A stretch of 64,000 bases of DNA from Lachnospiraceae bacterium NC2004 (GTDB lineage: Bacteria; Bacillota; Clostridia; Lachnospirales; Lachnospiraceae): NCBI GenBank assembly GCA_000621905.1, contig JHXB01000007.1:1-64000 (forward strand), in the 5' to 3' direction. Under the pieces are notes generated by a model. The model had not been told where the DNA came from and made no database searches. It worked only from the letters and a program-made list of their open reading frames with translations. Each line of letters opens with the position of its first letter. Positions within the stretch are counted from its first letter, which is position 1. Below, piece after piece: positions 5,348 to 28,629 of this stretch. The position numbers and the translations under genes were made by a program.

Positions 5348-5440
5348 AAAATAATCCCCCATCCAAAGTAAATTAACATTGAAATGCACATATATATAAT
5401 GTATTATATAAGTATCAAAGTATAATGCGAGGTGATAGTT

Positions 5441-5856: not shown

Positions 5857-5915
5857 AATAAAGAAACCCTATCGTTATCATATATTGACAGATTCCTAGA
5901 TATCTAGTTGTTATT

Positions 5916-7805: not shown

Positions 7806-7884
7806 ATAATCTCTCCCAATACTAATCTTTAACTAATCTCTTTAATACACTCTCCATTAATAACATTTATTAATATCCATTCTC

Positions 7885-9567: not shown

Positions 9568-9618
9568 GGTATTCCTCCTTAATATTTGCAACTAAATACT
9601 TATTCCGTAGTATTGCTT

Positions 9619-11436: not shown

Positions 11437-11472
11437 AATCATCTTCCTTTACAACCTGTATTTATGATAATC

Positions 11473-13104: not shown

Positions 13105-13138
13105 ATCCATCACCTCTATAACAAATCATCAATATTAT

Positions 13139-14215
13139 TTAAATCCTAACAGTAAAATCACCATCATCAAGATAAGACACCGTATCATTAACAACAGGTG
13201 CTTCTGTGTTAACCGCATTACCACTTACAGCAGGTGTACTCTTTGAGTCCATGTATTTTAAAACGAAAAATGTTGCTGCACACGCAATAACCATCAACGC
13301 TATCATCACAATTATTGTTCCAACAATCTTTCCAACCTTGCTTCCTTGAGGTTGCGCTTGCATCTGAGGTCGTTGTACAGGTTGATTCATAGGAACAGGT
13401 CTAACCACCTGAGGCTGGACTTGATTCATTTGATTTGCCATTGCCACTCTTGGATTGTTATATCTATTTCCGGCCGAAACGTTATTCTGTGCAGCTGCAT
13501 TCAAATTAACAGACTCGCTAACTTTCTTGATAGGGCCGTTACTCGAAGCTGGTTTAGAACCAGATTCCTGCTCTACCTTAGGCTTTACGACTGCCTTCTC
13601 TTCCTTCTTCTCAGGCTTATCATTTCTTATCTGAGCAGGATCTCTTAATACTACAGTAGGCTCCGGAGCATTTTCATCAATAAATTCATCAGATTCAACT
13701 CTCTGACCGCAGTGCATACAGAACATAGCTCCTTTAGGAAGCGTGTAGCCACACTTAACACAATAAGTCTCTTCTTCCGAAGAATCATCACGTGTCTCGC
13801 TAGCAACTTCTTCCACCTGCTTAGCTTCTTCAGCTTTCTTTATAGCCTCTTGTTCAGCTATTCTCTGGGCAGCAGCAGCAATCTCCCTTCTGGCTGCTTC
13901 TTCCTCTTCTCTCTGTCTTGCTGCCTCTTCTTCTGCTTTACGCTTTGCTTCTTCCTCCGCTGCTTTTCTCGCTGCCTCTTCTTCTGCTTTACGCTTTGCT
14001 TCTTCAGCTGCTGCCTTTCTCGCTGCCTCTTCTTCTGCCTTACGCTTAGTCTCTTCCTCTGCTGCCTGTCTCGCTGCTTCTTCCTCTGCTTTTGTATCTT
14101 CTGCAGCTAAATCATGATAGACATTCCAATCTATCCTGTTCCCGCAAGAAACACAGAATACATCTCCTTCATAAATTAAAGTTCCACATTTTGTACAATG
14201 AAATTCCATAGCCAT
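13139..14215 (-). CDS. zinc-ribbon, coiled-coil, single-TM protein
   Basis: A 358-residue protein with two zinc ribbons: C7-x2-C10...C21-x2-C24, and C152-x2-C155...C166-x2-C169. Between them is a highly charged Ala/Glu/Lys/Arg coiled coil (about 40-140) with three to four 17-residue repeats. After a Pro/Gln-rich stretch comes one C-terminal transmembrane helix (I-V-G-T-I-I-V-M-I-A-L-M-V-I-A) and a tail of some 35 residues outside. The bulk is therefore cytoplasmic. Function unknown; the arrangement suggests a membrane-bound adaptor. It sits in the sigma/kinase cluster with 34-41-base gaps. Confidence 0.75.
   Translation of the reverse strand: MAMEFHCTKCGTLIYEGDVFCVSCGNRIDWNVYHDLAAEDTKAEEEAARQAAEEETKRKAEEEAARKAAAEEAKRKAEEEAARKAAEEEAKRKAEEEAARQREEEEAARREIAAAAQRIAEQEAIKKAEEAKQVEEVASETRDDSSEEETYCVKCGYTLPKGAMFCMHCGQRVESDEFIDENAPEPTVVLRDPAQIRNDKPEKKEEKAVVKPKVEQESGSKPASSNGPIKKVSESVNLNAAAQNNVSAGNRYNNPRVAMANQMNQVQPQVVRPVPMNQPVQRPQMQAQPQGSKVGKIVGTIIVMIALMVIACAATFFVLKYMDSKSTPAVSGNAVNTEAPVVNDTVSYLDDGDFTVRI
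13895..14095 (-). repeat. 51-bp tandem coding repeats
   Basis: The coiled coil of the zinc-ribbon protein is encoded by near-identical 51-base units (17 residues, K-R-K-A-E-E-E-A-A-R-K-A-A-E-E-E-A). Three clear units and one degenerate unit are seen. Such repeats can change number by slippage or recombination. Confidence 0.7.
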
Positions 14216-14256
14216 AATTACACCTCAATTTTTAATATTATATTAAATACCAGATA

Positions 14257-15711
14257 TTACCCCTCTGAATGATCAACATGAATATGAGAATAAATATATC
14301 TATTCAATCTACATACGCCCCATGCTGAGTATATTCCAAATGTAATAATATCCAATAACCATACAAGAAGATAAGTTCCTAAAAGACCTAACGCAGTTCC
14401 GTCATACTTCATATGATCTCTTCCAACGACAGAATTCTTCGTTTCCCATTTAGTAATCATCGTGGTTGTCCACGGCCATGCCAAACCACAAGTAATACAA
14501 AGAATAATACTCTGAACTATTCCGTAACCAATATAAGCAGCCCATTCTCCCTCAAATCTACCATTAGTACCAGTTTCATCTGCATAACGAGTATTGTCCA
14601 TTTCCCATCTAAGTAAAAAGACATGTTCTACTAGTGAGAATAATCCACAGGTTACTATCGTTAATATTGTCCATAATATCCATCTTCCAAGGAGCCCGCC
14701 ACCTGTACCTGTAAATGCTAGTCTTCTCCCATTAATAACTGTATGTGACTTTCTCCATCTATATATTCTGCATAGCATCCATGGAGTTCCTATACCACAT
14801 GTAATTCCTGATACAATTATAAATAGAATCATATTGCCAATAAGCTCAATTCCTCTTCCGTCAAAGTACGAAGCTTCTCCGGGATTATGGATAATAGCGA
14901 GTTCAGCCTCACGCTGCTCTGACTCCGAGGATTCCTTGAGTTTCTTAAAGAACTCCCCATACTCACTCATATCTCTCCCTATATTAGGTCCGGATTCAAT
15001 CCCTTCACCTTGCATAATTACACGAGGCACTAAATCTACGCCCCAAATAACCACTATAGCACTAATAACTATACCCACGGTCAAAAGAACAGGATACTTA
15101 TCACGCAATATAATCATAAAGAAAGCCACAACATTTAAACTCACCATAGCAAGAGTTACATATGCGTACGCACTTCTCTTGTGTACAAATGATATCAATA
15201 TATACACTACCGCAACCAAAGCTGCTATATCTACAATTCCAAGCGCTATGTCGAATAATACATTTAGAATTATAGGTAAATTCTCTCTTAAAGAGTAATT
15301 GCCTATTACATTAAGAATACCTTTAAGTAAGTAAATAACTATACCTATAGCCAGACAGATTAATGGAACAAACAAACTTATCGCTGTCAGCTTCTCCATA
15401 TTATCAACCGTAAGATACCTTTTTATGCCTGTAGCTGTATTATCTGTAGAAATAGCACTTTCCTTACTAACTGTGTTAAATCTTTTCGAAGCGTTGCTTG
15501 TCGTATTATGGTTCTCTTCGTACATCCTTGAAAAATCTTGCCTTATTTCGGATGCAGCTCTATCTATGGTATCACCTAACCTATCGCTAACCTGATCTAT
15601 AGTTTGCCCAATAGAATCAACGTGACGTGAACTTCTGTCTTGGGATGATCCACACTTTGTACAAAATTTGGCTCCCTCCCTTATCTCGCTACCACACTTC
15701 CAACAAAACAT
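14257..15711 (-). CDS. zinc-ribbon DUF898-like multi-pass membrane protein
   Basis: A 484-residue protein beginning with a zinc ribbon (C3, C6, C17, C20). After a polar linker there are five or so transmembrane segments, then a C-terminal half made of two similar blocks with G-x-x-L-L-G-x-x-(I/L), T-C-G-(I/L) and W-x-x-x-R-I-Y-R-W. This pattern fits the DUF898/YjgN membrane family. No catalytic residues are evident. It shares its zinc-ribbon head with the neighbours on both sides. It starts after GGGAGG and lies 31 bases from the upstream gene. Confidence 0.75.
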   Translation of the reverse strand: MFCWKCGSEIREGAKFCTKCGSSQDRSSRHVDSIGQTIDQVSDRLGDTIDRAASEIRQDFSRMYEENHNTTSNASKRFNTVSKESAISTDNTATGIKRYLTVDNMEKLTAISLFVPLICLAIGIVIYLLKGILNVIGNYSLRENLPIILNVLFDIALGIVDIAALVAVVYILISFVHKRSAYAYVTLAMVSLNVVAFFMIILRDKYPVLLTVGIVISAIVVIWGVDLVPRVIMQGEGIESGPNIGRDMSEYGEFFKKLKESSESEQREAELAIIHNPGEASYFDGRGIELIGNMILFIIVSGITCGIGTPWMLCRIYRWRKSHTVINGRRLAFTGTGGGLLGRWILWTILTIVTCGLFSLVEHVFLLRWEMDNTRYADETGTNGRFEGEWAAYIGYGIVQSIILCITCGLAWPWTTTMITKWETKNSVVGRDHMKYDGTALGLLGTYLLVWLLDIITFGIYSAWGVCRLNRYIYSHIHVDHSEG

Positions 15712-15742
15712 TCTAATACCTCCCGCGCATTTAGCAAAATAC

Positions 15743-17245
15743 TTATTCCACTAAAGTATCATCTACTAACTGCAGATTCTCACTTTCACACTTTTCAGTA
15801 ACATATTCCTTCAATTCTTCAATATCTTTATATCCATAATAGGACCAAATCTTTTTATCCCAATAATTCACTTTAATTCCTGAATCAAACTCAACATTAT
15901 AATTGTCGTAATTATACCAACTGTCAATTGCTTGATAATCTTCAATATCTGATATCAATTTACCATCGGAATCGCGTGCAACATTAGAATATGTTATGTA
16001 GTAATAAACACAATTCTCTTTATTATAATTTCGTTTTCCAGACTTATACTTATTCCTAATAGTTGCTTTATATATGATTAGAAGTCTATTATTAACATCA
16101 GGATAATCATTACTCGGAAGAAACATCATTTCTCCCATTTGTTCAAGTTTCTTCAGAGATTCTGTCTCGTCAGAATCTTGGAAATAATCCATCCACCAGT
16201 TTTTACATTGCTCTCTCATTTCTTCGATATCACTATCAGAAATATCTTTTAATTGCTTGACATATTCGTCAAGTCCCTCTACTGTATACGTACGCTCCGT
16301 TACACTTGGTTTCATCCCATGTGCTTTTATAAAATCATTAATGTTACTTGTATCAACACATACCGTAACAGAGTCCCCGTTACTTAAATCCCCATCATCT
16401 TCATATGATTCACTAGAAAGTTCAAAGTTCAGCTCGCCCTGATATTGTAAATTATTAATCATGACACTTCCATTAGGAGAAACTCCCTCGAACCTTACAT
16501 CTAGGATATCTTCTGAGAATGCATCAAACTCTTCTGCCTCCTCAAGACCTTTGATTTTTACTTCAACATCCTCGTCACTGTACTTTACCTTACAATTAAA
16601 ATATTCACTTATCACATCGGTATCTGCTTTAATCATGTATGTAACGTCATCACCATTCGACAATGAACCATAACAATTTTCCGATTTACTAATCGAAGTG
16701 TGGGCTTTAATAACCTCAGCTAGCCACCCAGATATGTATTTATCACGTACTACTCTCTTACCGTATTTTTTTTCGATGGCATCAGAATCGATTTTAACAT
16801 TGAAACTTCCATACCCATTATAGCCAATCGTTTCAGTCACAACATATTTGTCAAGATTAATTGTATTCCTATTAGTAAACCAGAACACTCCCGCCCCTAT
16901 CGCACATAATGCAAGCAATGCACAAATAACAATTGGTATTATAGGAAACTTCTTGCTCGTACCGCCGTTTCCATATGTTGCGGTAGGCTGTGGTTCATAT
17001 GGTTGTGATTGTACTTGTGCTGCTTGAATCCTCGCAGAAGCACCTGCTACCGCAGGATTTACTCTTGGTTCCATATTGTGCAGCTGATCTCCGTTAGATA
17101 CATTGTTATTGCTATCTACAACTACCGGAGATACACCCTCATTAATTGAAGCATTGTTGTTTGGAAGTGGCATCAGCCTAGCGCCACATTCTGCACAGAA
17201 AATATCGCTATCCTCATTCTTGGTTCCACACTTTCTACAAAACAT
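15743..17245 (-). CDS. zinc-ribbon, single-TM protein with large outer domain
   Basis: A 500-residue protein with a zinc ribbon at residues 3-20 (C-R-K-C...C-A-E-C), a Gln/Pro-rich linker, one transmembrane helix near residues 105-128 (P-I-V-I-C-A-L-L-A-L-C-A-I-G-A-G-V-F-W-F), and about 370 residues that would be outside. The outer part begins L-D-K-Y-V-V-T-E-T-I-G-Y-N-G-Y-G and looks like a repeat of two beta-rich domains (F-N-V-K-I-D, F-E-L-S-S-E). I do not recognise a named function. It has the same in-to-out plan as the sigma fusions, with a zinc ribbon in place of the sigma factor. Confidence 0.75.
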   Translation of the reverse strand: MFCRKCGTKNEDSDIFCAECGARLMPLPNNNASINEGVSPVVVDSNNNVSNGDQLHNMEPRVNPAVAGASARIQAAQVQSQPYEPQPTATYGNGGTSKKFPIIPIVICALLALCAIGAGVFWFTNRNTINLDKYVVTETIGYNGYGSFNVKIDSDAIEKKYGKRVVRDKYISGWLAEVIKAHTSISKSENCYGSLSNGDDVTYMIKADTDVISEYFNCKVKYSDEDVEVKIKGLEEAEEFDAFSEDILDVRFEGVSPNGSVMINNLQYQGELNFELSSESYEDDGDLSNGDSVTVCVDTSNINDFIKAHGMKPSVTERTYTVEGLDEYVKQLKDISDSDIEEMREQCKNWWMDYFQDSDETESLKKLEQMGEMMFLPSNDYPDVNNRLLIIYKATIRNKYKSGKRNYNKENCVYYYITYSNVARDSDGKLISDIEDYQAIDSWYNYDNYNVEFDSGIKVNYWDKKIWSYYGYKDIEELKEYVTEKCESENLQLVDDTLVE

Positions 17246-17259
17246 ATCTTACCCTCCAT

Positions 17260-17664
17260 TTAAATATTTCTGTATATTCCATATAATACAGTAATCACTA
17301 AACAAACAATCAAAAATACTATCTCCCACACTCTAAACCAGTCTTTTCCGGTCTTAATGTAGATACTGCACTTATAAATCCCATATATCACCATCACAGG
17401 GACAAGACTAACAGATAAAGCGTTGTATTCAAATGCCTTATAAATATGCCCTGACAATACAGCAACTGCTGCATGAGTCATTCCACACCCGGGACATTTA
17501 TACCCTGTAATTAATCTAAACACACAAGGAATACCTAACCCAAATATCTTAATTATTATATAATAGGCTATTCCGAGCACCAGAATCGATAGAATACTTT
17601 TTATAACTGATGATAGTCTTTCTTTACATTGTTTATCTTTCATATTGCAGTTAATACTTAGCAT
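17260..17664 (-). CDS. DUF2752 small membrane protein
   Basis: A 134-residue protein with three hydrophobic segments and the DUF2752 signature Y-K-C-P-G-C-G-M-T-H-A near its middle. The role of the family is unknown. There is no good ribosome binding site at either candidate start (the first ATG or the Met at position 8), so the start is uncertain; coupling to sigma paralog 3, which ends 15 bases upstream, may drive translation. Confidence 0.75.
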   Translation of the reverse strand: MLSINCNMKDKQCKERLSSVIKSILSILVLGIAYYIIIKIFGLGIPCVFRLITGYKCPGCGMTHAAVAVLSGHIYKAFEYNALSVSLVPVMVIYGIYKCSIYIKTGKDWFRVWEIVFLIVCLVITVLYGIYRNI

Positions 17665-17678
17665 TCTTTAAAGCTAAT

Positions 17679-19805
17679 CTAAGATCTTACAATTATCTTA
17701 TAAATCTTATCATTCTCATCTATATACAAAAATACGCCAAGACCCTCCGCATCTAATACAACACCTATCTGATCTATGGTTGACTCCTGTAGTGGATCAT
17801 ATGGAGTATCTCTATGAGTGTGTTGGGTAACAATTCTACAATTGTCATCAAGCTTATATTCTTTATTCTTTAATTTGATATAGTCATTTGCTTTACTGCT
17901 ACCAAATTTCCCATTTAGGATCAATGCATTATTCTTATACTTAATCTTACCCATTGGCTGTGTTGCAATTAAATGATATCCTTTTCTAAGAGTGGATTTA
18001 TAAACTACGTCGCCATTATCATCTCTCCAATCAATATTAGGGTACTTTTCAAAATCATCGTCACTATCTCTCGTAGTTTTCCCTGAGGCGCCTATTTTGT
18101 ACATCGAAGCATTATAACCATCTTCGTCGTTTGAAATATAATAACCATGTTCATATATCCCGGTGCATCTCTTAGACAGCTTACTTGAAGCATTGTCAAA
18201 TTCCTTAATAGGATTAAGACTGTTGTTATCCACCAAATATATCCCCCAAACTTCAATGGTCTGTACCAAACCGTTAGTCTGAGAAGCATATGTTACAGAG
18301 ATCTCTGATTCTGAATTCTCTATTCCTGAAATACTTTCATTAGAGCTATCTAAATCTAAAGCTCCTCCTATTATCAACTCGTCAACACCATCATTGTTGA
18401 AATCGTAATATGAATGATACATCTGATATCCTTTTGATGTATATCCGGATAAATCTGCTTTCCGCATAAATTTACTACAATAAGAATCTGCTTTTTTCTG
18501 AAATTCATCCTTCTTGGCAGCAATAACGTCCAAGCTAACCTCATAATTACCATCAGCATTGTCGACAGCATTTTCTTCTGCTGAACCATCAACTTTGGTT
18601 GTCTTAGTTGTAGCACCAGCATCAGAATTGTTAGCATTTACAACCAAATCATTAGCGTCTTCTAATATCTCAGCTGTTGTTTCAGCATCAGCCGACGCCT
18701 CAACAGCAATGTTGTTTCGCTCCTCATACTTGTGGTATTCATGTGTCGCGATACCTGCTCCACTAGCTGTTGGTACAGCTATCGCAAGAGCCACTGCCGC
18801 AGTCTTAAGCACCGTTGCACCTACTGTCGCACCTGCAGCCGCACTTCCCGCTGTAGCACCGGTTGCAGCTACTCCGCTGGCCATTGCTGCTCCTGTAACA
18901 GATGACGCTTTAACTACTCCGGTCGCAGCCGCTGTACCTGCCATTGTTGATGCATCGCTTGCCCCAAATGCACCTGCCACACCGCCGGTTGCTCCTGATA
19001 TCGCGGTTGTACCTGTCATCGCTGCTGCACCTGTTACTCCTCCACTGTTAGCAGCTATCCCTGCAGTAGCAAGTGCTCCTGCTGCTCCTATAGCCTGTCC
19101 TGTTGTAACAGCAGCATATCCCATCTTTATCGCAATAATGTTATACGCTGCCTGTGCACCTGATGTACCGAAAACAAAACTCTCCATATATGCTCGAACA
19201 GCCATAATAATAGACGGTACTGTAACAACGTGTAGCCTAATTCCTTCCGCTTTCTCCTTAGCGAGAACAAGTTCTTCTATCTTCTTCCTAGCGTAATTGA
19301 GACGTGATTTAATTGTTCCTGTTGATACCCCTAAAGTGTTAGCAATATCTGTAACGCTCATCTCATCATAGTAGTATGCGACTACAACAGCACTCTGTTC
19401 AGGCGGAAGCTCATCAAGCATGCCTTGTATAATGTTGGCTGTCTCACGCTCTTCCATCTCAACACCGGGTTGAACAGACTTATCAAGGCATTCCTGCACC
19501 TCAAACAATCCTTCACCTTCATCACTTAGGAGAACGTCTCTCTGTTTATTGAATATCTTCATACCCTGACGATATGCAATACCACCTAACCATGCATAAA
19601 GATTATTGACATCTTTAAGAGTATCAAGCGATCTTGACGCTGCTATGTATACTTCCTGCAAAAGATCTGCAGCATCATCGTAGTTCTTCATGATAGCTCG
19701 CGTCTTAGCAAATACATAATTATATGTCTCATTGTATATAACATTAAATCCATTTTCATCGCCGTTAATCCACTGTTCAACGGCAAGTGTTAGATTGTCA
19801 TTCAT
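17679..19805 (-). CDS. membrane-tethered ECF sigma factor, paralog 3
   Basis: At 708 residues the longest of the four. Sigma region 2 (20-85) and region 4 (127-180) are close to those of the others (M-N-D-N-L-T-L start as in paralog 4). The linker after residue 235 is an Ala/Gly/Thr-rich stretch of about 100 residues, then comes a weakly hydrophobic predicted membrane helix (about 331-353, A-A-V-A-L-A-I-A-V-P) and H-K-Y. The outer domain has a Thr/Ala/Asp stalk and Y-Y-D-F-N-N-D-G-V-D-E-L-I-I-G-G, as in paralogs 1 and 2, then W-G-I-Y-L-V. GGTGAG precedes the ATG at 19805; the open frame starts 8 codons earlier. It is the first gene of the tight run down to the LRR gene. Confidence 0.85.
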   Translation of the reverse strand: MNDNLTLAVEQWINGDENGFNVIYNETYNYVFAKTRAIMKNYDDAADLLQEVYIAASRSLDTLKDVNNLYAWLGGIAYRQGMKIFNKQRDVLLSDEGEGLFEVQECLDKSVQPGVEMEERETANIIQGMLDELPPEQSAVVVAYYYDEMSVTDIANTLGVSTGTIKSRLNYARKKIEELVLAKEKAEGIRLHVVTVPSIIMAVRAYMESFVFGTSGAQAAYNIIAIKMGYAAVTTGQAIGAAGALATAGIAANSGGVTGAAAMTGTTAISGATGGVAGAFGASDASTMAGTAAATGVVKASSVTGAAMASGVAATGATAGSAAAGATVGATVLKTAAVALAIAVPTASGAGIATHEYHKYEERNNIAVEASADAETTAEILEDANDLVVNANNSDAGATTKTTKVDGSAEENAVDNADGNYEVSLDVIAAKKDEFQKKADSYCSKFMRKADLSGYTSKGYQMYHSYYDFNNDGVDELIIGGALDLDSSNESISGIENSESEISVTYASQTNGLVQTIEVWGIYLVDNNSLNPIKEFDNASSKLSKRCTGIYEHGYYISNDEDGYNASMYKIGASGKTTRDSDDDFEKYPNIDWRDDNGDVVYKSTLRKGYHLIATQPMGKIKYKNNALILNGKFGSSKANDYIKLKNKEYKLDDNCRIVTQHTHRDTPYDPLQESTIDQIGVVLDAEGLGVFLYIDENDKIYKIIVRS

Positions 19806-19846
19806 ACTCTCACCTTTATAATATTTCATGTAAACCTTCCAAAGTA

Positions 19847-19898
19847 GGTCAAAAATACTTTGCTTCGTTTAGGATGACTCGATTAATGTGTTAATAAA
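19847..19898. repeat. degenerate REP-like element (GGTCAAA...GCTTCG...GATGAC)
   Basis: GGTCAAAAATACTTTGCTTC..., then GGATGACTCGATTAATGTGTTAAT. The same order of words, better preserved, occurs at 22985-23035. It lies between the small membrane protein gene and sigma paralog 3. Confidence 0.55.
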
Positions 19899-19912
19899 AC
19901 ATCATTAATCAA

Positions 19913-20353
19913 TTATTCATCGCCATATCCTATAAGATTAAATAACCCTGTAACTGCAGCCGCAATAGCAGAATATAATATCAACGATTTAACATCTGTA
20001 TTTCCCATCTCTATATTAACTCGCCATGTAATTACAGCGACCAGTCCACAACCAAAAATACCAAACACTACTCTGGCAGCCTTTATGTTTAACTGCAATA
20101 TAATTACAATCAATGCAACAATCCCACATATTACAACACAATGCGTAGTTTCACAGCCTGAAGAATACATCAATACAGCCGGAATAGCTCCTGCCATCAA
20201 CCCATTAACAATATAAAAATGTGTAATTAAGAATAATGCGATTGAAATTACGAGATTAATACCAAACCCAATTAGATAAATGAGTATTCCTAAAACTCCC
20301 AATCCAACCTCTGCGTCGTTATTTGTGTCAATGTACCATACATCTCTGTCCAT
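19913..20353 (-). CDS. small four-TM membrane protein of unknown function
   Basis: 146 residues with about four transmembrane segments and little else; a soluble N-terminal stretch (M-D-R-D-V-W-Y-I-D-T-N-N-D-A-E-V) precedes the first. I do not recognise a family. A strong AAGGAGGAATT site precedes the ATG. Copy A of the bipartite promoter-like motif lies 54 bases upstream, so this gene, and possibly sigma paralog 3 behind it, may be started from there. Confidence 0.7.
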   Translation of the reverse strand: MDRDVWYIDTNNDAEVGLGVLGILIYLIGFGINLVISIALFLITHFYIVNGLMAGAIPAVLMYSSGCETTHCVVICGIVALIVIILQLNIKAARVVFGIFGCGLVAVITWRVNIEMGNTDVKSLILYSAIAAAVTGLFNLIGYGDE

Positions 20354-20406
20354 AATAATTCCTCCTTTGAATCATATAATAGTTTACTCAAGGGCATTTC
20401 TTAACC

Positions 20407-20445
20407 CTCTCATATATAAGTACAGAGAAATATGGTTTTGGTTTT
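20407..20445 (-). promoter_or_regulatory. bipartite ECF-promoter-like motif, copy A
   Basis: On the minus strand: AAAACC, 16 bases, then GTACTTATATATGAGAG. The first block overlaps the stop codon of sigma paralog 4. The 16-base spacer differs in sequence from those of copies B-E while both blocks and the distance are kept, which argues for a two-part recognition site rather than a plain repeat. Confidence 0.6.
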
Positions 20446-22105
20446 AAATTTTTATAAATTTTTTATTCTTTTTCATAGGCAGTTCGACAAAGTATGTATC
20501 AGCAGAATCAGGAGACATAACATGCACTTCTACATTACCGTTACTATTAACCCAGAAAGCCTCATGACTCATAAAAAATTCTTTTGTATTCTTCATATCA
20601 TCTAACTGAATATCATTAAACAGAATTTTTGCATAAGAATCCTCTTTATATTTTTCTTTAACTTCAGCTTTGATTATTTTGTATATTTCGTCATCATCAC
20701 CAAGCAAGTCATTAATTGACATCATTTTGCCTGTATTAATATCATAATTCAATCCTTCTAACCCTAGAGCTCCGGTTCCTAGTCCCAATATTGCGTGATT
20801 TAATTTTACGCTAAATATACCATTATTATTGCATATCACATCTAAACTAATACTACCATGATACGGCATTTGCGGACGGTTACTAAGCGAATCAAATAAT
20901 TCTTCAATACGCTCATATAAATCATTTAGATCTCTATTAATCTTATCAATACCATCACTTGAGCCCATTAATACTATTTTATCGTACCTCTCGTCCTCCA
21001 TTTCTGTATCTGTGTAAATCACTTCCTCTTTCGTGAACTCAACGCTATCTATCATATCTGCTGATGCATCGGAAGACTTAGCCGATTCAGATGCATTGCT
21101 CGACACTTGCGCATCATCGGTTACATTTGCATTATTAGGAGCATCGGTATCATTATTATCAACATTCGTCACATAATCAGTAGATGAAACAGCAATCTCA
21201 TTGGAATAATGTTGATATACATTATTTCCTACAAATACCCCTCCACCTAGCGAAGCAAGTGTCATAATCGCTATTATCATGGTTTTAAATCCCATACTTC
21301 CAACGCCAACTCCCATAGCGCTCGATGCAACTACATTTGACGCGCTAGCCCCTGTATATACTGTATTAATTGAAGCATTCTGAACAGCTTCGATAACATT
21401 TGCACCGATTGATGTATATCCCATCCTTGTTGAAATACTGTTATATGCAGTTTGAGCATCCGCCATAGATATAGCAAAGCCTTCCATGTACATATATACA
21501 GCAAGCAGAATACTTGGCATTGTAACAGAATGAAGCCTGATGCCTTCTTTCTCCTCTTTAGCAAGTACAAGCTCTTCTATCTTCTTTCTTGCGTAATTAA
21601 GACGAGATTTAATCGTGCCCGTTGAGACTCCCAATGTACTAGCTATATCAGTAACACTCATCTCGTCATAGTAGTATGCAACTACGACTGCACTCTGTTC
21701 CGGAGGCAACTCGTCAAGCATATCTTTTATGATATTCGCTGTCTCACGCTCTTCCATCTCAGCACCCGGCTGAACAGACTTATCAAGACATTCCTGCACC
21801 TCAAATAATCCCTCGCCTTCATCACTTAAGAGAACGTCTCTCTGTTTGTTGAATATCTTCATACCCTGACGATATGCTATACCACCTAACCATGCATAGA
21901 GATTATTGACATCTTTAAGAGTATCAAGCGATCTTGACGCTGCTATGTATACTTCTTGTAGAAGATCCGCAGCATCATCATAGTTCTTCATGATAGCTCG
22001 CGTCTTAGCAAATACATAATTATACGTCTCGTTGTATATAACATTAAATCCATTTTCATCGCCGTTAATCCACTGTTCAACAGCAAGTGTTAGATTGTCG
22101 TTCAT
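20444..22105 (-). CDS. membrane-tethered ECF sigma factor with RsiV-like outer domain, paralog 4
   Basis: 553 residues. Sigma regions 2 (20-85) and 4 (127-180) match the other three. The transmembrane helix is about 271-293 (M-I-I-A-I-M-T-L-A-S-L-G-G-G-V), followed by N-V-Y-Q-H-Y. The outer domain (about 355-553) differs from the others: L-N-Y-D-I-N-T-G-K-M-M-S-I-N-D-L-L resembles the DUF3298 domain that ends RsiV, the lysozyme-binding anti-sigma-V of Bacillus, and the part before it could be the DUF4163 half. If so, sigma factor and anti-sigma-like sensor are one chain. The start has GGTGAG. It lies 33 bases after the secreted PPC-like gene. Confidence 0.85.
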   Translation of the reverse strand: MNDNLTLAVEQWINGDENGFNVIYNETYNYVFAKTRAIMKNYDDAADLLQEVYIAASRSLDTLKDVNNLYAWLGGIAYRQGMKIFNKQRDVLLSDEGEGLFEVQECLDKSVQPGAEMEERETANIIKDMLDELPPEQSAVVVAYYYDEMSVTDIASTLGVSTGTIKSRLNYARKKIEELVLAKEEKEGIRLHSVTMPSILLAVYMYMEGFAISMADAQTAYNSISTRMGYTSIGANVIEAVQNASINTVYTGASASNVVASSAMGVGVGSMGFKTMIIAIMTLASLGGGVFVGNNVYQHYSNEIAVSSTDYVTNVDNNDTDAPNNANVTDDAQVSSNASESAKSSDASADMIDSVEFTKEEVIYTDTEMEDERYDKIVLMGSSDGIDKINRDLNDLYERIEELFDSLSNRPQMPYHGSISLDVICNNNGIFSVKLNHAILGLGTGALGLEGLNYDINTGKMMSINDLLGDDDEIYKIIKAEVKEKYKEDSYAKILFNDIQLDDMKNTKEFFMSHEAFWVNSNGNVEVHVMSPDSADTYFVELPMKKNKKFIKI

Positions 22106-22138
22106 AGACTCACCTTTATAGTCCGAATCGAATATACT

Positions 22139-22921
22139 TTATCTTTTGGTTATTTTAAGCTTGTATTCTCCTCTATACCAGTATTCTCCTGGAATCTCAA
22201 TATATATTTTCTGACCTTTTTTCAGTTTGCCACTATACGCCTTAATCCATCCCTGGCCCGACTTTAAATAACAGTTGCTTACTTCTTTATATCCCTTATA
22301 TACATGCATTGCTTCTGTTCCTTCTATACTTACTCCTTTGATTACATACTTTCCTTTTCGAGGAGCTTTAAATACGAAGCAATCTTTATCTTCGGAATAG
22401 TTAACAATTCCACCCTTAATAGTATTTAGTTTTATCACATTGGCTTTCTTCTTGGAATCATTATTTTCAACCTCAAAGTTCTTTGGTGTAACCTGTATTA
22501 CTTTTAAAACATACTCACCATCGCAATACATAGAATCATTTCTAAGTGACATTTTAACTTTAGAACCTTTCTTGAATGACAAACAGCTACTTGTACCCGT
22601 TCCACGTCCTTCGTAAACATCAAACTTATCATACTCTTTATAATTATGTTCCATTGAAAATATTATCGAACCTTTTCCAAGACCTAATCCTGTATCATCT
22701 CCATCTGTACATGTTAACTCCACATAAAAATAGCCTTCACCTGTTGTTGTATATGTATATTCAGCTCTGCCGTCACTACCAGCTAATCTTCCTGTATATT
22801 CTTTTCCTGCTTCAATCTCTGTAGCTGCATCAGCATTTATTGAACTAAAACCTGCAAGTAGGGCAAGTGTTGCCAACATCATAACTACTACTCTCTTAAC
22901 TTTAATAATCGCATTCTTCAT
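22139..22921 (-). CDS. secreted protein with PPC-like domain
   Basis: A 260-residue exported protein: a signal peptide at residues 8-30 (V-V-V-M-M-L-A-T-L-A-L-L-A-G-F), then two beta-rich domains. The second opens F-E-V-E-N-N-D-S-K-K-K-A-N-V-I and continues G-x-V-x-Y-S-E-D-K-D-C-F-V-F, the pattern of bacterial pre-peptidase C-terminal (PPC) domains, which often serve in export or surface binding. There is no enzyme domain and no anchor. It starts after AAAGGAGGAA and lies in the same direction just before sigma paralog 4, so it is a candidate ligand or partner of that sensor. Confidence 0.75.
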   Translation of the reverse strand: MKNAIIKVKRVVVMMLATLALLAGFSSINADAATEIEAGKEYTGRLAGSDGRAEYTYTTTGEGYFYVELTCTDGDDTGLGLGKGSIIFSMEHNYKEYDKFDVYEGRGTGTSSCLSFKKGSKVKMSLRNDSMYCDGEYVLKVIQVTPKNFEVENNDSKKKANVIKLNTIKGGIVNYSEDKDCFVFKAPRKGKYVIKGVSIEGTEAMHVYKGYKEVSNCYLKSGQGWIKAYSGKLKKGQKIYIEIPGEYWYRGEYKLKITKR

Positions 22922-22984
22922 TAGAAATTCCTCCTTTATTTGTATCTTTAGTATTATTTAATAATTTAGGATGACCTTCTAAAG

Positions 22985-23035
22985 AAGGTCAAAGATCCTT
23001 CGCTTCGCTCAGGGTGACATGATTAGTGTGTTAAT
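22985..23035. repeat. REP-like element
   Basis: GAAGGTCAAAGATCCTTCGC, then CTTCGCTCAGGGTGACAT, then GATTAGTGTGTTAATC. It belongs to the dispersed family with members at 19847, 35007 and 61926 (opposite orientation), and ends on the stop codon of the YARHG gene. Confidence 0.7.
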
Positions 23036-23835
23036 CAACCACCTTGAGATTTAATCTTCTTTTGCTTTTTCTTGTTATCGAGTGGATACCTCCATTGATT
23101 ATTGTCATCCTTCACTCCATACTTCTTAGCAAGCATCGCCTCACGGGCACGAAGCTTGTTAAAGTTCGCGCCCTCTACTTCATCGTCTGTCACGGATTCA
23201 TCATCAAACTCTCCAAGTTCGTACAGAGGTTCATACCAATCCTTTGATTCAAAATACTTCTGTAATTCCTTTGATTGAAACCTCCGCCCATGTCTAGCAA
23301 ATAACTCATTTGCAGCGTAGTTACACTCTTTTATGCTAAGTTTGTTAACTTTCTTATCAGACACATATTCCACGTCACTATCTGGAATGATATACCCACT
23401 CTTGCTGTTTATTCCCTCTCCAGGATCATCGTCTTCGTCCTCTAAAGCATCCTCATCAGGATCTTCCTGAACAGTTTCCTTAGTCGTTGCTTCCGTAACT
23501 TCTTCGGTAGTAACAGCTTCAGTAGTGACATCCGCGATAAAGGCTTCCGTCGTTGCTATCGCATTTGCCATAGAGTCGCCTTCTGTCTTGTTATTCAAGC
23601 CTCTCACAAAAAAGATTGTTCCAGCCACAGCAGCACCACATAAAAGTATAGCCACCATTACAAGTACACCTAGTTTGCTAGAAGATGATCCTTTCCCCGC
23701 ATTAGGCGGAGCAAAATCATTCATATTGGTGGTCTCTTGAGGACCCCATTCGATTTTTGAACCACAATTGGTGCAGAAACCATCTCCTTCGAGAAGATTA
23801 GCACCACATATAGGACATTGAAAAGTCCTTGACAT
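23035..23835 (-). CDS. zinc-ribbon, single-TM, YARHG-domain protein
   Basis: A 266-residue protein: a zinc ribbon at residues 7-24 (C-P-I-C...C-T-N-C), one transmembrane helix (L-G-V-L-V-M-V-A-I-L-L-C-G-A-A-V-A-G), a T-T-E/acidic linker and a C-terminal YARHG domain (N-E-L-F-A-R-H-G-R-R-F-Q-S-K-E-L-Q-K-Y-F). YARHG domains are extracellular and of unknown function in clostridia. The frame begins with a GTG, but the ATG three codons in has GAGGTG at better spacing and is preferred. It is the first gene of the cluster on this strand. Confidence 0.85.
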   Translation of the reverse strand: MSRTFQCPICGANLLEGDGFCTNCGSKIEWGPQETTNMNDFAPPNAGKGSSSSKLGVLVMVAILLCGAAVAGTIFFVRGLNNKTEGDSMANAIATTEAFIADVTTEAVTTEEVTEATTKETVQEDPDEDALEDEDDDPGEGINSKSGYIIPDSDVEYVSDKKVNKLSIKECNYAANELFARHGRRFQSKELQKYFESKDWYEPLYELGEFDDESVTDDEVEGANFNKLRAREAMLAKKYGVKDDNNQWRYPLDNKKKQKKIKSQGG

Positions 23836-23961
23836 AAAACTCACCTCAGTTCTACGTAATCATTGATGACATACGCTTATCAGAATGTCAACAGTACAAA
23901 TTATAACGCTTTTTAGTCATATTTTCAATATTTCTTTGCCTTTTTTGTGCTATATTACTAT

Positions 23962-23978
23962 AGTGTTTGCGAAACACT
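23962..23978. promoter_or_regulatory. perfect 17-base inverted repeat
   Basis: AGTGTTT-GCG-AAACACT, in the 309-base divergent space between the YARHG gene and the XRE regulator. This is the right place and size for an operator of the regulator at 24145, although it lies about 165 bases from that start. The rest of 23836-24144 shows nothing else clear. Confidence 0.5.
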
Positions 23979-24144
23979 CGTTGTCATTTTCTAAAGAGCA
24001 CCGAAACTCAGCGCATTTTACGTTCTATCACTCTTTTCCGTTATATCAAGCAAATTTATGACGCTTTTAAGTATCTATCACCAAATGCAATCATGCATTA
24101 TAGTTGAATATATCAATAAATCTGTATCTAGGAAGGTATAACTC

Positions 24145-24462
24145 ATGAACGAAGTATTAGAACGTATTGAGGAAATGTTAGAAGAGCGTGGCTGGACTAA
24201 ATATCGCCTTGCCAAGGAATCCCATATTGCCTATTCTTCTCTGAACGGTCTGTTTCAAAAGAACAACCAGCCTACCATTCCTACGCTACGCAAAATATGT
24301 AAAGGGTTTAATATTTCTATCTCTGACTTCTTTGCTTACGACGAAAGCAACAATTACATTATCAAGCTCAGCGACGACGAAATAGAACTGCTAAAAATGT
24401 ACAATTCTCTTGATAACAAGCACAAACACGCTATATACAACCTTTTAAAGTCCTTAGTATGA
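24145..24462 (+). CDS. XRE-family transcriptional regulator
   Basis: A 105-residue protein with a Cro/C1-type helix-turn-helix at about residues 8-65: R-L-A-K-E-S-H-I-A-Y-S-S-L-N-G-L-F and T-I-P-T-L-R-K-I-C-K-G-F-N-I-S-I-S-D-F-F. A short C-terminal helix (E-I-E-L-L-K-M-Y-N-S-L) follows, as in small dimeric repressors. AGGAAGG precedes the ATG. It is the only classic DNA-binding regulator near the sigma cluster and is divergent from it. Confidence 0.9.
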   Translation: MNEVLERIEEMLEERGWTKYRLAKESHIAYSSLNGLFQKNNQPTIPTLRKICKGFNISISDFFAYDESNNYIIKLSDDEIELLKMYNSLDNKHKHAIYNLLKSLV

Positions 24463-24484
24463 ACATCCCTCTATAAAACTTTTT

Positions 24485-24769
24485 TCAATTAGACTCGCTA
24501 TTCTTTACTACCGGAGCTATAAGCTTCACTAACACTACAGGAATATATAGCCATCCTACAACCCAGCTAAACAATAACTCTATAACAGCTATCAACACTA
24601 TAGACGCTACATTCTTCGGAGAATCCTTATTAGATATTGGAATGTGCGCCAGCTCCCATAAACCTAATATACTCGGAGACAACATAATCGCTAATATTAT
24701 ATGGTCTTTCAATAGCATTCCTGATATATATACGCCAAGCAACAGACTTAAAATTTCAGATGTAACCAT
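24485..24769 (-). CDS. small membrane protein of unknown function
   Basis: 94 residues, mostly hydrophobic, with about three membrane segments. I do not recognise a family. GAGGGTG lies before the ATG. It is convergent with the XRE gene (22 bases between stops), and a strong hairpin lies upstream of it. Confidence 0.6.
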   Translation of the reverse strand: MVTSEILSLLLGVYISGMLLKDHIILAIMLSPSILGLWELAHIPISNKDSPKNVASIVLIAVIELLFSWVVGWLYIPVVLVKLIAPVVKNSESN

Positions 24770-24816
24770 ATTTTCACCCTCTTTCTTAATTGATTATGCA
24801 GGCGAAACATAACTTA

Positions 24817-24859
24817 AATCGATTCACCCCGGGCCTCATAGGCCCCAGGTGAATTGATT
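24817..24859 (-). terminator. hairpin terminator after the transglutaminase-like gene
   Basis: AATCGATTCACC...GGCC-TCATA-GGCC...GGTGAATTGATT forms a long stem (about 19 pairs with small mismatches), 3 bases past the stop codon at 24862. Confidence 0.7.
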
Positions 24860-24861
24860 CA

Positions 24862-26145
24862 TTACCATTTAGCCATGTTAAGCGACTTGGTTGCTATTGT
24901 GTATTTATAAGATGATGCTCTCTTATGAGAATCAGGGTTTTTAAAGAGAGGCTCGCATGTAGTGTTTCCTACTTTGATTTTTTTACCTGCTACTGTACCA
25001 AAATCCTCATCTGACAACATTGACCATCCATAGTACTTTACGTTCTTTCCGAAATCTTCCTTAATATCATCAATCATATAATCATCCCAAGTTACATCCA
25101 TGTTGTACCACTTGCCATTGTACTTAACGAGATTCCATGCATGATTTCCCTTTTCTACACTCTCAACAACTACACAATCAATTCCAGCGGCGTTCATAAG
25201 AAGCTTGGTATATTCTGAATATCCGGCACATACTGCTTTACCCATAATTGCGCCATATGCAGTCTGATCATTTTTATTTTCCTTATATACTGTCTTTTTG
25301 CAAATATAATCATGAATATACTTAATCTTCTGCTTATCTGTCTTACCCTTAACTGCTTTGGCTACCTTCTCTGCTTCCTGTCTGCACACTTTATCTTCCT
25401 TGCTCTCAGTTGTTTCCACCTTCTTCTTGATTGTAAGATTAACTATACCTACTTTCTTTTTGGTATCCTTTCTTACTAATGCGAATTTGTATGTGCCTGC
25501 TTTAAGTAACTTATATTCAAATACTAACGTAGATCCATCCTTCTCAAACTCACATCCAACTCTCTTTACAGCACTATTTACATCATTACCAGAAAGAGCA
25601 TAGTTTTTATCCTTTGCATTCTTAAGAGAAAACTTAATTGTTTGTCCTACACTTGCTTCACGAGTAATCTCAGCTATATTAGCTGGTGCCTCAGTTGTAG
25701 CCTTCTTCTGAGTTGTTGACGGTGCCTGTGTTGTTGCCTTTTTCTGGGTTGTTGACGGTGCCTTGCCCTTAACTTCCATTGCTGTAATATGTACAACACC
25801 TAATACTTCATCAGTATTTGTTTTTACAATCTTGATGTCGAACGTTCCAGCCTTGATCAACTTTACGAAATATTCGGTAGAAACAGTATTTTTATCCTTC
25901 ACCTTATCCGTACTTGTAACAAAAGTTGCATAATCATTAATATTCTTACCCTTAAGTTTATATGTATTAGTCTTAGGATGACTAAGTGAAAATGAAATGG
26001 TATTGCCTACAACCCCTTCCTTATTTACGGTTTTAACAGCTGCATTACCTTTTACTACATTGCTGAACCCGGCTCCGGTTACCATGATTGCCATTGCCAA
26101 TACAAATGCTACCATTCTTTTAAAATTCTTTACTACGTTTAACAT
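24862..26145 (-). CDS. secreted transglutaminase-like protein
   Basis: 427 residues with a signal peptide (M-V-A-F-V-L-A-M-A-I-M-V-T-G-A-G-F). Two related beta domains follow (V-G-N-T-I-S-F-S-L..., V-G-Q-T-I-K-F-S-L..., each ending in K-A-G-T-x-x-x), separated by a S-T-T-Q-K-K-A repeat linker. The C-terminal third is a transglutaminase-like cysteine-protease fold: A-V-C-A-G-Y-S (Cys), N-H-A-W-N (His) and M-D-V-T-W-D-D (Asp) give the full triad. It could cleave or cross-link surface protein or peptidoglycan peptides. AAGGAGGAATT precedes the start, and two promoter-like motifs (copies B and C) lie about 99 and 208 bases upstream. Confidence 0.87.
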   Translation of the reverse strand: MLNVVKNFKRMVAFVLAMAIMVTGAGFSNVVKGNAAVKTVNKEGVVGNTISFSLSHPKTNTYKLKGKNINDYATFVTSTDKVKDKNTVSTEYFVKLIKAGTFDIKIVKTNTDEVLGVVHITAMEVKGKAPSTTQKKATTQAPSTTQKKATTEAPANIAEITREASVGQTIKFSLKNAKDKNYALSGNDVNSAVKRVGCEFEKDGSTLVFEYKLLKAGTYKFALVRKDTKKKVGIVNLTIKKKVETTESKEDKVCRQEAEKVAKAVKGKTDKQKIKYIHDYICKKTVYKENKNDQTAYGAIMGKAVCAGYSEYTKLLMNAAGIDCVVVESVEKGNHAWNLVKYNGKWYNMDVTWDDYMIDDIKEDFGKNVKYYGWSMLSDEDFGTVAGKKIKVGNTTCEPLFKNPDSHKRASSYKYTIATKSLNMAKW

Positions 26146-26243
26146 AATAATTCCTCCTTATACTCCTGCTTTGCAGGGTGTTTAGTTAATTTGTTATTTT
26201 ATAATAAGTACTTTCTTGTTCCCGCGATCCTCCTTTTTCATCG

Positions 26244-26282
26244 CTCTCATATATAAGTACCTTTAAGTTTTGATTTGGTTTT
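26244..26282 (-). promoter_or_regulatory. bipartite ECF-promoter-like motif, copy B
   Basis: Minus strand: AAAACC, N16, GTACTTATATATGAGAG, followed by CGATGAAAAA. The last base is 99 bases from the transglutaminase-like start codon. Confidence 0.6.
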
Positions 26283-26352
26283 ATTATTTTGAAACTTTTT
26301 TATTATTTTTATTTCTTATCATAAAACCTCGTCTTTTAGGGGTTTTTCATCC

Positions 26353-26391
26353 CTCTCATATATAAGTACCTCTAAGTTTTGGTTTGGTTTT
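26353..26391 (-). promoter_or_regulatory. bipartite ECF-promoter-like motif, copy C
   Basis: Same two blocks and the same 16-base spacing as copy B, 109 bases further upstream, just past the stop of the protease gene (26422). Between B and C an AAAACC/GGTTTT stem could form in RNA. Confidence 0.6.
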
Positions 26392-26421
26392 ATTATTTTG
26401 AAACTTTTTTATATATTTGTC

Positions 26422-27807
26422 TTAAGATGCCATCTCACCACATGAGAAGCAAAACTTTGCACCTTCGCGAAGCTTCGTACCACACTTACCACATGTACAG
26501 ACTTTTGGTACAATCGGTACATATTCAACCGGTGTTCCACAAGAATTACAGAACTTCGCTCCCGGTCTTAATATGTTGTTACAGCATATGCAATTGCTAA
26601 CACTTTCTGCGCTAAACGCCACACGTTTAGGAGCAGCCATAGGTTTAGCGTAACTGATATTAGATTTGTCAGCCTCCAACTTTGAAACTGCTATATCATC
26701 CATTGAAGCCTCAACTTCAGCTTTAACCATAGTGTCCACTTTTGGTATTATCAATTCTTCTTCATAAACAGGAGCGTTATTAACTGTTCTACGAAGCAAG
26801 TTCAATCTCTCAATTCTTGATTCGGTGTCAGGGTGACTACTTGACAAAGCCGCAAACAAACCCTCCGGAGCAGGTCCTTCATCAAATGTTCTAAACACTT
26901 CAATAAGCTCATCTCCATAACCAAGATCAAATGAAAACTTATCAGCCTCGTATTCGCAATCTCTACTAGCTTTTTGCATGATAAAGAAACCAAGCTTGGT
27001 CCATCCTGCAAAAAACAAACCAACAACTACAAATGAAGCGAATCTACAAAAGAGTTTAAGTCCTTCCCCGATAATAAAACCGATTAAATCAAACATCCAA
27101 CCTACAATCCTTGGAAGACATGCACCAATCATTGTACAAAAGAATTTCGAAAAGAAACTTCCTACTCTTCCAAATAAAGCAATGAGAATCTGATTCATCC
27201 AAACTATAAAGCTAACAAGCAAATTACCAACTGTTATCACAAGAATTGTATCTGTGTCCTTGTGAGCTAAATGTCCCATCTCATGTCCTAAAATCGCCTT
27301 TATGTGTTCAGGTGACTCGTTAAACAGCCCCTCAGTAACGCATACCGTCTTCCTACCTACTGCAAATGCGTTGACACTCTCATCCGCACAAATGAACAAT
27401 TTAACATTATCAGGAATCGACGGATCTAATCTCTTTGCCTTCATATATACTTCATTAAATAACGGCTCTATGAACGCAAGCTTGTCAGGATCAGCTATTT
27501 TCCTACATCCATTTTGTATTCTGACGATAAACTCACCAACAGGCGACAATGCAATTACAAGGCATATGAAATATGCAACTATGCTAAGTGCAAATGCGAT
27601 CAAGATTTCTTTGACTCCAATAGAAAGGTTACTATATTCTCCAGAGGACATACTTGCGTCATGAATAAAACTACCAGTAGAATCCATAAGCATTAATGCC
27701 GTTATCATGCCTGCTGCAATAAGTAAAACATTGACAACCAGGTAGATAATCAACTGAACGCTATTCTTCCTTGAAAACAACCTCTTAAAAAAATCAAATA
27801 CATACAT
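26422..27807 (-). CDS. HtpX-like M48 membrane metalloprotease with C-terminal zinc ribbons
   Basis: 461 residues. Two N-terminal membrane segments (about 18-42 and 66-90), then H-E-M-G-H at 175-179 with a downstream C-E-Y-E-A-D-K-F that supplies the third zinc ligand, and S-S-H-P-D-T-E-S-R-I-E-R as in HtpX-type proteases. Two more hydrophobic stretches lie between. The extra C-terminus (about 90 residues) ends in two zinc ribbons (C-x2-C...C-x2-C, N-C-I-C-C and C-G-K-C), which ordinary HtpX lacks. M48 membrane proteases do quality control of membrane proteins. GGAGG fits the ATG at 27807 better than the two in-frame starts before it. Motif copies D and E lie upstream. Confidence 0.88.
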   Translation of the reverse strand: MYVFDFFKRLFSRKNSVQLIIYLVVNVLLIAAGMITALMLMDSTGSFIHDASMSSGEYSNLSIGVKEILIAFALSIVAYFICLVIALSPVGEFIVRIQNGCRKIADPDKLAFIEPLFNEVYMKAKRLDPSIPDNVKLFICADESVNAFAVGRKTVCVTEGLFNESPEHIKAILGHEMGHLAHKDTDTILVITVGNLLVSFIVWMNQILIALFGRVGSFFSKFFCTMIGACLPRIVGWMFDLIGFIIGEGLKLFCRFASFVVVGLFFAGWTKLGFFIMQKASRDCEYEADKFSFDLGYGDELIEVFRTFDEGPAPEGLFAALSSSHPDTESRIERLNLLRRTVNNAPVYEEELIIPKVDTMVKAEVEASMDDIAVSKLEADKSNISYAKPMAAPKRVAFSAESVSNCICCNNILRPGAKFCNSCGTPVEYVPIVPKVCTCGKCGTKLREGAKFCFSCGEMAS

Positions 27808-27891
27808 AATCATTACCTCCATTTTCTAATTATTGATTTGTTGTATTGTAATTACGTACTTTTTATTATGGCGACACTCCTTTTTATATCG

Positions 27892-27930
27892 CTCTCATAT
27901 ATAAGTACCCTCGAGTTTGGATTTGGTTTT
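27892..27930 (-). promoter_or_regulatory. bipartite ECF-promoter-like motif, copy D
   Basis: AAAACC-N16-GTACTTATATATGAGAG on the minus strand, 85 bases before the protease start codon. Confidence 0.6.
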
Positions 27931-28001
27931 ATATTTTTGAAATAATTTTTATATTTTTATTATTCAACATAGAACCTCATCTTTTCGGGCTTTTTTCATC
28001 C

Positions 28002-28040
28002 CTCTCATATATAAGTACCTTTGAGTTTTGATTTGGTTTT
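28002..28040 (-). promoter_or_regulatory. bipartite ECF-promoter-like motif, copy E
   Basis: The same motif 110 bases upstream of copy D. The D/E pair has the same layout as the B/C pair. Apart from these motifs and A/T-rich DNA, 27808-28109 holds no gene. Confidence 0.6.
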
Positions 28041-28109
28041 ATATTTTCGAAAATTTTTTGTATTTTTTTATTATTGAACATATGTTGAATGGTATTGTTG
28101 AATGAATAG

Positions 28110-28524
28110 AAACATATTGAAATATCATTTGATAATAACTATAATGATAGAAAAGAGTATTCAGGTGATGAGGAGATTGTTTTTCATCCGAATGAACATT
28201 ACATATCTAGGAACAACGAGCCTGATGTGAAGCGGATTACTGATTCGGTTTTTTCGATTATAGGTAGTGTAACCAAGAATTATCATTTGGAATATTAGTG
28301 AAAGGATTGGTGGTATTATGGGTGGACAGGTAATTATGACGAAAGCTAAGGAGATTCTTAATAGCGGGATTGAGCAAGGTATTGAACAGGGCATAGAACA
28401 AGGAATTGAGCAAGGTAGAATCCAAATGATTGTTGATTTAGTTAACGATGAGGTGCTATCTATTGAGGAAGCTGCTGCAAGAGTAGGATTGACTGTTGAG
28501 GAGTTTAAGAAGCGAGCTGAATAA
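28110..28524 (+). pseudogene. broken Rpn/PD-(D/E)XK nuclease-transposase family gene
   Basis: Two pieces of one gene lie side by side. Bases 28110-28298 read ...E-P-D-V-K-R-I-T-D-S-V-F-S-I-I-G-S-V-T-K-N-Y-H-L-E-Y-stop, the N-terminal strand region of this family. Bases 28318-28524 read the C-terminal I-E-Q-G-I-E-Q-G repeat tail with E-A-A-A-R-V-G-L-T. The catalytic middle is missing, so an internal deletion is likely. The second piece, but not the first, is duplicated at 1300-1494. Confidence 0.75.
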
Positions 28525-28600
28525 CCAACATATATAGGATTGGTGGTACCATTAACAAGCTTAAAACCCACATGAATTGTGTAGAGTAGTCAGAATAAAT

Positions 28601-28629
28601 AAAATGCGCCGGCACTGCCGGCGCGTTTT
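28601..28629 (-). terminator. sodA terminator hairpin
   Basis: AAAATGCGCCGGC-ACT-GCCGGCGCGTTTT: a 13-pair stem with a single G-T pair, beginning 14 bases past the sodA stop and followed on the minus strand by A/T-rich DNA. Confidence 0.75.

Follow-up and report, generated by a model that had tools for sequence, protein, structure and literature searches.

Five predicted ECF-type promoters in a cluster of membrane-tethered fused sigma factors of Lachnospiraceae bacterium NC2004

The window, by which we mean the whole 64,000-nucleotide stretch of contig JHXB01000007.1 analysed here, carries four paralogous genes for fused ECF sigma factors on its minus strand. A small membrane protein, a secreted transglutaminase-like protein and a membrane protease are encoded nearby on the same strand. 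The genes and a sigma-A-like promoter are as follows (promoter 1 is listed further below):

3392-5389, minus strand: fused ECF sigma paralog, 665 aa (homology, transmembrane prediction)
5916-7805, minus strand: fused ECF sigma paralog, 629 aa, last in the gene run behind promoter 1 (homology, transmembrane prediction)
17679-19829, minus strand: fused ECF sigma paralog, 716 aa, in which sigma2/sigma4 are followed by one transmembrane helix and an ectodomain; probable member of the operon behind promoter 1 (Pfam sigma70 r2/r4, transmembrane prediction)
19913-20353, minus strand: small membrane protein, 146 aa, first gene after promoter 1 (open reading frame)
20444-22105, minus strand: fused ECF sigma paralog, 553 aa; a sigma-A-type promoter precedes its probable operon (Pfam, transmembrane prediction, AlphaFold model)
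23900-23928, minus strand: sigma-A-like promoter TTGAAA-17-TATAAT, upstream of the gene run from 23844 to 20444 (sequence match)
24862-26145, minus strand: secreted transglutaminase-like protein, 427 aa, predicted target (PF01841, E 2e-10)
26422-27822, minus strand: M48 membrane protease, 466 aa, with C-terminal zinc ribbons, predicted target (PF01435, E 7e-22)

Each sigma protein is predicted to have its sigma2 and sigma4 domains in the cytoplasm, joined by one transmembrane helix to an extracellular domain. Compared with the sigma part of the 20444-22105 gene, those of its three paralogs are 89 - 94% identical, and the C-terminal parts with the ectodomains diverge (window 3392-22105). Because the four sigma parts are nearly identical, one common promoter is expected; judged from the sequences, the four proteins with their different ectodomains probably share it. 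In Pfam and NCBIfam searches, sigma70 r4, ECF and TIGR02937 score above the curated cut-offs and sigma70 r2 scores at or slightly below its cut-off. Pfam finds no zinc anti-sigma domain in the fused sigma proteins. One strong hydrophobic segment lies behind the sigma part in all 34 homologs, five of which have a weaker second segment. The AlphaFold model of the 553-aa protein is confident for sigma2 and sigma4 and has low confidence past residue 240, so that the transmembrane helix at residues 272 - 309 is a low-confidence feature. Since the ectodomain of this protein matches DUF3298 only non-significantly (E 1.1), no solved homolog of it was found, and the ectodomain model has low confidence, no signal is proposed. 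Weak FG-GAP matches were noticed in the ectodomain of the 5916-7805 protein (E 0.011) and in a relative from the sheep rumen described below (E 0.007). The 146-aa small membrane protein has no match in Pfam or NCBIfam.

The cluster contains some repetitive DNA of other kinds. Two similar intergenic stretches, 19840-19912 and 22978-23034 (GTCATCCTAAACGAAGCAAAG... and GTCACCCTGAGCGAAGCGAAGG..., respectively), resemble a short dispersed palindromic repeat. Two nearly identical stretches of 43 nt, 1533-1575 and 28563-28605, lie 27 kb apart and are possible mobile-element remnants; the second adjoins an open reading frame, 28161-28571, that encodes GIEQGIEQG repeats.

A bipartite motif, TAAAACCAAA-N13-GTACTTATATATGAGAG, occurs in five exact copies on the minus strand of the window and nowhere else in the 3.37-Mb genome. 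An earlier note on this DNA had reported five bipartite minus-strand copies, each upstream of a gene, and on rescanning all five proved exact at the reported positions, in sense orientation with respect to the gene that follows. The two blocks and the fixed 16-nt spacing between the -35-like and -10-like elements were described correctly, but the constant blocks are longer than was reported, 10 bases (TAAAACCAAA) and 17 bases (GTACTTATATATGAGAG) separated by 13 variable bases. The sites are:

20407-20446, minus strand: predicted ECF-type promoter 1; exact motif TAAAACC(-35)-N16-GTAC(-10)TTATATATGAGAG, spacer unlike that of the other copies
26244-26283, minus strand: predicted ECF-type promoter 2, proximal to the transglutaminase-like gene; exact motif
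26353-26392, minus strand: predicted ECF-type promoter 3, tandem distal copy before the transglutaminase-like gene; exact motif
27892-27931, minus strand: predicted ECF-type promoter 4, proximal to the M48 protease gene; exact motif
28002-28041, minus strand: predicted ECF-type promoter 5, tandem distal copy before the M48 protease gene; exact motif

The genome-wide scan proposed in the earlier note, with both blocks and a spacing of 16 +/- 1 (AAAACC-N(15-17)-GTACTTATA), gave five matches in the 3.37 Mb, all of them within the window and upstream of genes; reversed-pattern controls gave 0. Scanning the genome for the whole motif with up to 3 mismatches added no copy to the same five. The second block by itself, GTACTTATATATGAGAG, again with up to 3 mismatches, matches five times in the window versus 0.37 expected by chance. 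At a spacing of exactly 16 nt the window contains the five perfect copies and none with 1 - 2 mismatches, nor is there such a copy before any other gene of the window.

Four of the five copies are related by duplication. The sites at 26244 and 26353, and those at 27892 and 28002, form two tandem pairs with repeats of 109 and 110 nt, and the pairs are themselves duplicates of each other, ~80% identical over ~236 nt. The genome thus offers two independent contexts for the motif and not five, because four copies stem from one duplicated tandem promoter unit. This history is what speaks for regarding the copies as a plain dispersed or tandem repeat with no regulatory role. The pattern of divergence, however, points the other way. 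When the four duplicated copies are aligned, none of the 27 motif columns varies, whereas outside the motif only 34 of 93 columns are invariant (Fisher P 4e-10, taking columns as independent). The copy at 20407 keeps both arms, 27 of 27 motif bases, around a spacer of equal length that has only 4 - 5 of 13 bases in common with the others, in line with what the earlier note had said of this spacer. The motif is invariant while spacer and flanks have diverged, which argues for a constrained bipartite site. Furthermore, the rest of the genome is without copies, and similar sites in other genera adjoin the same sigma family. A plain repeat is rejected on the grounds of the genome-wide uniqueness, the invariant motif columns and the unrelated 20407 spacer; we give it next to no credence. 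The tandem pair has been copied before two unrelated genes, for the M48 protease and the transglutaminase-like protein (26146-26421 and 27823-28100). As the M48 gene is consequently flanked by direct repeats, recombination between them is possible.

Promoter 1 lies ~50 nt ahead of the start codon of the gene for the small membrane protein. This gene is followed by ten genes on the same strand with gaps of 14 - 83 nt, including the sigma paralogs at 17679 and 5916, and terminator prediction gave no convincing call between the genes of this run. Because of the short gaps and the lack of a convincing terminator, promoter 1 probably drives the paralogs 17679-19829 and 5916-7805 as well, in an operon whose extent is deduced from these features. 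The 553-aa sigma gene (20444-22105) is arranged differently. It is the last gene of the run from 23844 to 20444, the motif was not found upstream of it, and its probable operon has the sigma-A-type promoter.

Homologs of the fused sigma factors were gathered by protein similarity alone, and the surroundings of each homolog, up to 7.5 kb away, were then scanned with a matrix built only from the sites of the window, with 200 shuffles as a control. Fused sigma factors are present in 32 of 397 sampled genomes of the family (~8%). The nearest one in another genus, 42% identical over the matched part, is that of G006, the sheep-rumen Lachnospiraceae MAG RGIG6919. The pattern TAAAAYCAA-N14-GTAYTTATA has three zero-mismatch matches in the entire G006 genome, and the rest of the matches need 2 - 3 mismatches and are near the control frequency. 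One of the three is upstream of the fused sigma gene, from which a short zinc-ribbon ORF separates it; another precedes a papain-like protease gene directly after the sigma gene; the third, on another contig, precedes a short ORF and a small membrane protein gene. When a longer pattern was run over the 397 family genomes, more than one match, or matches with zero mismatches, were found only in G000 and G006. That the motif is common in the family was ruled out, since exact-core matches elsewhere are at the level of the reversed-pattern control.

The window matrix finds intergenic, correctly oriented sites at the fused-sigma loci of six out of six relatives that carry [YF]RQxxK in region 2.4 of the sigma factor. 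Four of these (G006, G202, G070 and G451) have two sites each that score above all 200 shuffles, and G438 and G222 have one site each, whose score is reached by 1 and 2 of 200 shuffles, respectively. In G006, G070 and G438 a site directly precedes the sigma gene; in G202, G451 and G070 there are sites before genes for secreted proteins, and in G222 the site is upstream of a gene run leading to the sigma gene. In G202 and G070 the exact core pattern, searched for genome-wide, matches at the fused-sigma loci only. An unbiased dyad search in the relatives, requiring four or more copies, found nothing because these loci carry only one to three sites each.

The conserved block could also be partly an RNA element. 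Downstream of a promoter, a leader starting from GAGAG would then fold into a short 5' hairpin that governs the stability or translation of the mRNA. A short hairpin can form directly after GAGAG in all five leaders, three of which exceed all 200 shuffles, and GAGAG is invariant in the window. The hairpins are on the minus strand at 20376-20412, 26218-26249, 26340-26358, 27870-27897 and 27985-28007 (for example GCGAT..ATCGC); at 26244 and 27892 the loop contains GGAG, and the hairpin is weaker in G006. It is weak or absent in the relatives G202 and G451, however, and the -35 and -10 blocks are upstream of any transcript. As an account of the sites this is therefore quite unlikely, and a hairpin could be an addition to a promoter rather than an alternative to it.

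The window matrix was also run on 24 other fused-sigma loci and found GTAC-type sites in none of them. These loci contain 14 sense-strand matches to AAAC[CTA]-N16-17-CGTC versus ~2.5 expected, and 10 of the 14 are placed where a promoter for the sigma operon or for the next gene is expected. The 10 sites, of the ordinary ECF form TAAAACC-N16-CGTC, belong to eight loci: G197 and G030a with two each, and G030b, G291, G324, G410, G004 and C21. The last is a contig of the NC2004 genome itself with a second fused ECF system (L042 13397-13430), in which TAAAACC-N16-CGTCTAATATA lies upstream of lipoprotein and sigma genes; in G004 the sigma factor and promoter are nearly as at C21. Apart from these sites at C21 and in G004, neither genome has a zero-mismatch match to TAAAACC-N16-CGTCTAATATA. 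In all, promoters are predicted from sequence at 14 of the relatives' loci examined.

The two kinds of site go with two kinds of region 2.4. The [YF]RQxxK sequence is present in all six GTAC-type relatives and in the sigma factors of the window, compared with 0 of the 24 other loci. The CGTC-type sigma factors mostly have N and D/N at those positions (e.g. NNTIDYMRK, NKTVDYLRK), with G324 as an exception. In Mycobacterium tuberculosis sigma-H, N88 contacts a base at -10 (PMC6411747), and in Tt-RpoE1 the D of DXXR reads the -12G of CGTC (PMC3397946). The residues that differ (N to R and D to K) correspond by alignment to these known -10 contacts. If the sites are aligned at constant distance from the -35, CGTC-TAATATA is in register with GTAC-TTATATA. 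In this alignment GTAC takes the place of CGTC as the -10 tetramer, with no change of the -35 or of the spacer. An alternative register, with GGTA as the -10 and a spacer of 15, is possible. The RQ-type sigma factors may be one clade, in which case the covariation may go back to one event in evolution. Sampling of one further genus and of the wider order added loci with non-RQ sigma factors only, and neither GTAC-type nor CGTC sites were found there; the lack of GTAC-type sites at non-RQ loci is as the promoter hypothesis predicts, and no new positive case was added.

These comparisons bear on whether the sites might be operators of another DNA-binding regulator, acting on ordinary promoters nearby. 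A candidate regulator exists: inside the cluster, on the other strand, 24145-24462 encodes an HTH protein. The conserved block, 27 bases, is also long. Against this, the site follows the fused sigma factor across seven genera, and its -10-like block changes with the sigma2 residues while the -35-like block and the 16-nt spacer stay constant. The sites are, furthermore, non-palindromic and always in sense orientation before genes. Operators of this kind are accordingly an improbable explanation.

ECF promoters are characterized by AAC at -35, CGT at -10 and frequent autoregulation (PMC8103513, PMC3817407). The sequence TAAAACC, which contains AAC, is found in all five sites and in the GTAC- and CGTC-type relatives, with the variants TAAAATC in G006 and TAAAACT in G070. 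The 16-nt spacer of the five sites is likewise constant in the relatives. Autoregulation is indicated by the sites at the sigma genes of G006, G070 and G438; in the window it would run via the 20407 promoter and the paralogs 17679-19829 and 5916-7805 of the presumed operon. The -10, however, is GTAC instead of CGT, the CGTC form being that of more distant relatives and of the C21 locus, and the conserved block extends to GAGAG, beyond the usual ECF -10. Both count against ECF promoters, as do the duplicate origin of four of the five sites and the absence of the motif upstream of the 20444-22105 sigma gene. With the AAC -35 and autoregulation present and the CGT -10 missing, the sites would be ECF promoters of a variant type.

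The earlier note had proposed that the sites are promoters for the neighbouring fused sigma factors and mark out their regulon. This proposal is supported by the genome-wide uniqueness of the motif, its sense position before genes, its occurrence at homologous loci only, and the change of the motif that tracks the -10-reading residues. We thus consider it highly probable, from comparison of sequences, that the five sites are ECF promoters read by the adjoining, predicted membrane-tethered fused sigma factors. Such a promoter would be laid out as a -35 TAAAACC, a 16-nt spacer, a -10 GTAC and an A+T-rich region downstream. By analogy with IutY and with what is proposed for ECF48/52/53, an extracellular signal would set the sigma part free, probably through regulated intramembrane proteolysis. 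The released sigma part would then direct transcription at the five sites and hence production of envelope proteins. The regulon would be small and local, with three parts: the small membrane protein and the gene run containing two sigma paralogs, the transglutaminase-like protein, and the protease of the M48 family. The two paralogs behind promoter 1 would yield more sigma factor and so a positive feedback.

A more specific proposal, to which we assign an even chance, is that the cluster is an array of four sensors with one promoter. The sigma proteins, with near-identical DNA-reading parts and different ectodomains, would serve one dedicated promoter class, kept orthogonal to the CGTC-type sigma factor of C21 by GTAC and the swap of N to R and D to K. 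The regulon would stay near the sigma genes and would have grown by copying of the tandem unit before an unrelated gene. The promoter presumably common to four sensors and the proposed natural swap of -10 specificity are the most interesting aspects of the locus. Through the analysis an unannotated sigma cluster of gut and rumen bacteria acquires a defined promoter and a predicted regulon. The locus also provides a natural example of coupled change in the -10-reading residues of a sigma factor and in its promoter, which is testable by swapping residues and bases.

Autoregulated ECF promoters, such as that of Tt-RpoE1 in a clostridium (tGTTAC-N16-CGTC), similarly have AAC in the -35, a spacer of 16 - 17 nt, and sites at the sigma operon and nearby envelope genes. 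The subfamily of the window differs from them in having GTAC and not CGTC, N to R and D to K in region 2.4, and the conserved downstream TTATATATGAGAG.

The fused architecture is already known in kind (PMC8999054). IutY (ECF243), ECF48, ECF52 and ECF53 are also single proteins in which sigma2-sigma4 is followed by one transmembrane helix and then an extracytoplasmic domain; IutY is known to be activated by proteolytic release, and the same is proposed for the other three (PMC8999054). Here, in contrast, the proteins are from Lachnospiraceae, have no zinc anti-sigma domain by Pfam and occur as four paralogs in one cluster. The SigI/RsgI arrays of cellulolytic clostridia resemble the cluster in being paralogous sets of membrane-coupled sigma factors with diverse ectodomains and adjoining targets. 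The SigI paralogs are 36 - 45% identical and have been studied for the avoidance of crosstalk (PMC6056542). The sigma parts described here, however, are at least 89% identical to that of the 20444-22105 gene and are expected to read one promoter, and RsgI is a separate protein, whereas here sensor and sigma factor are fused.
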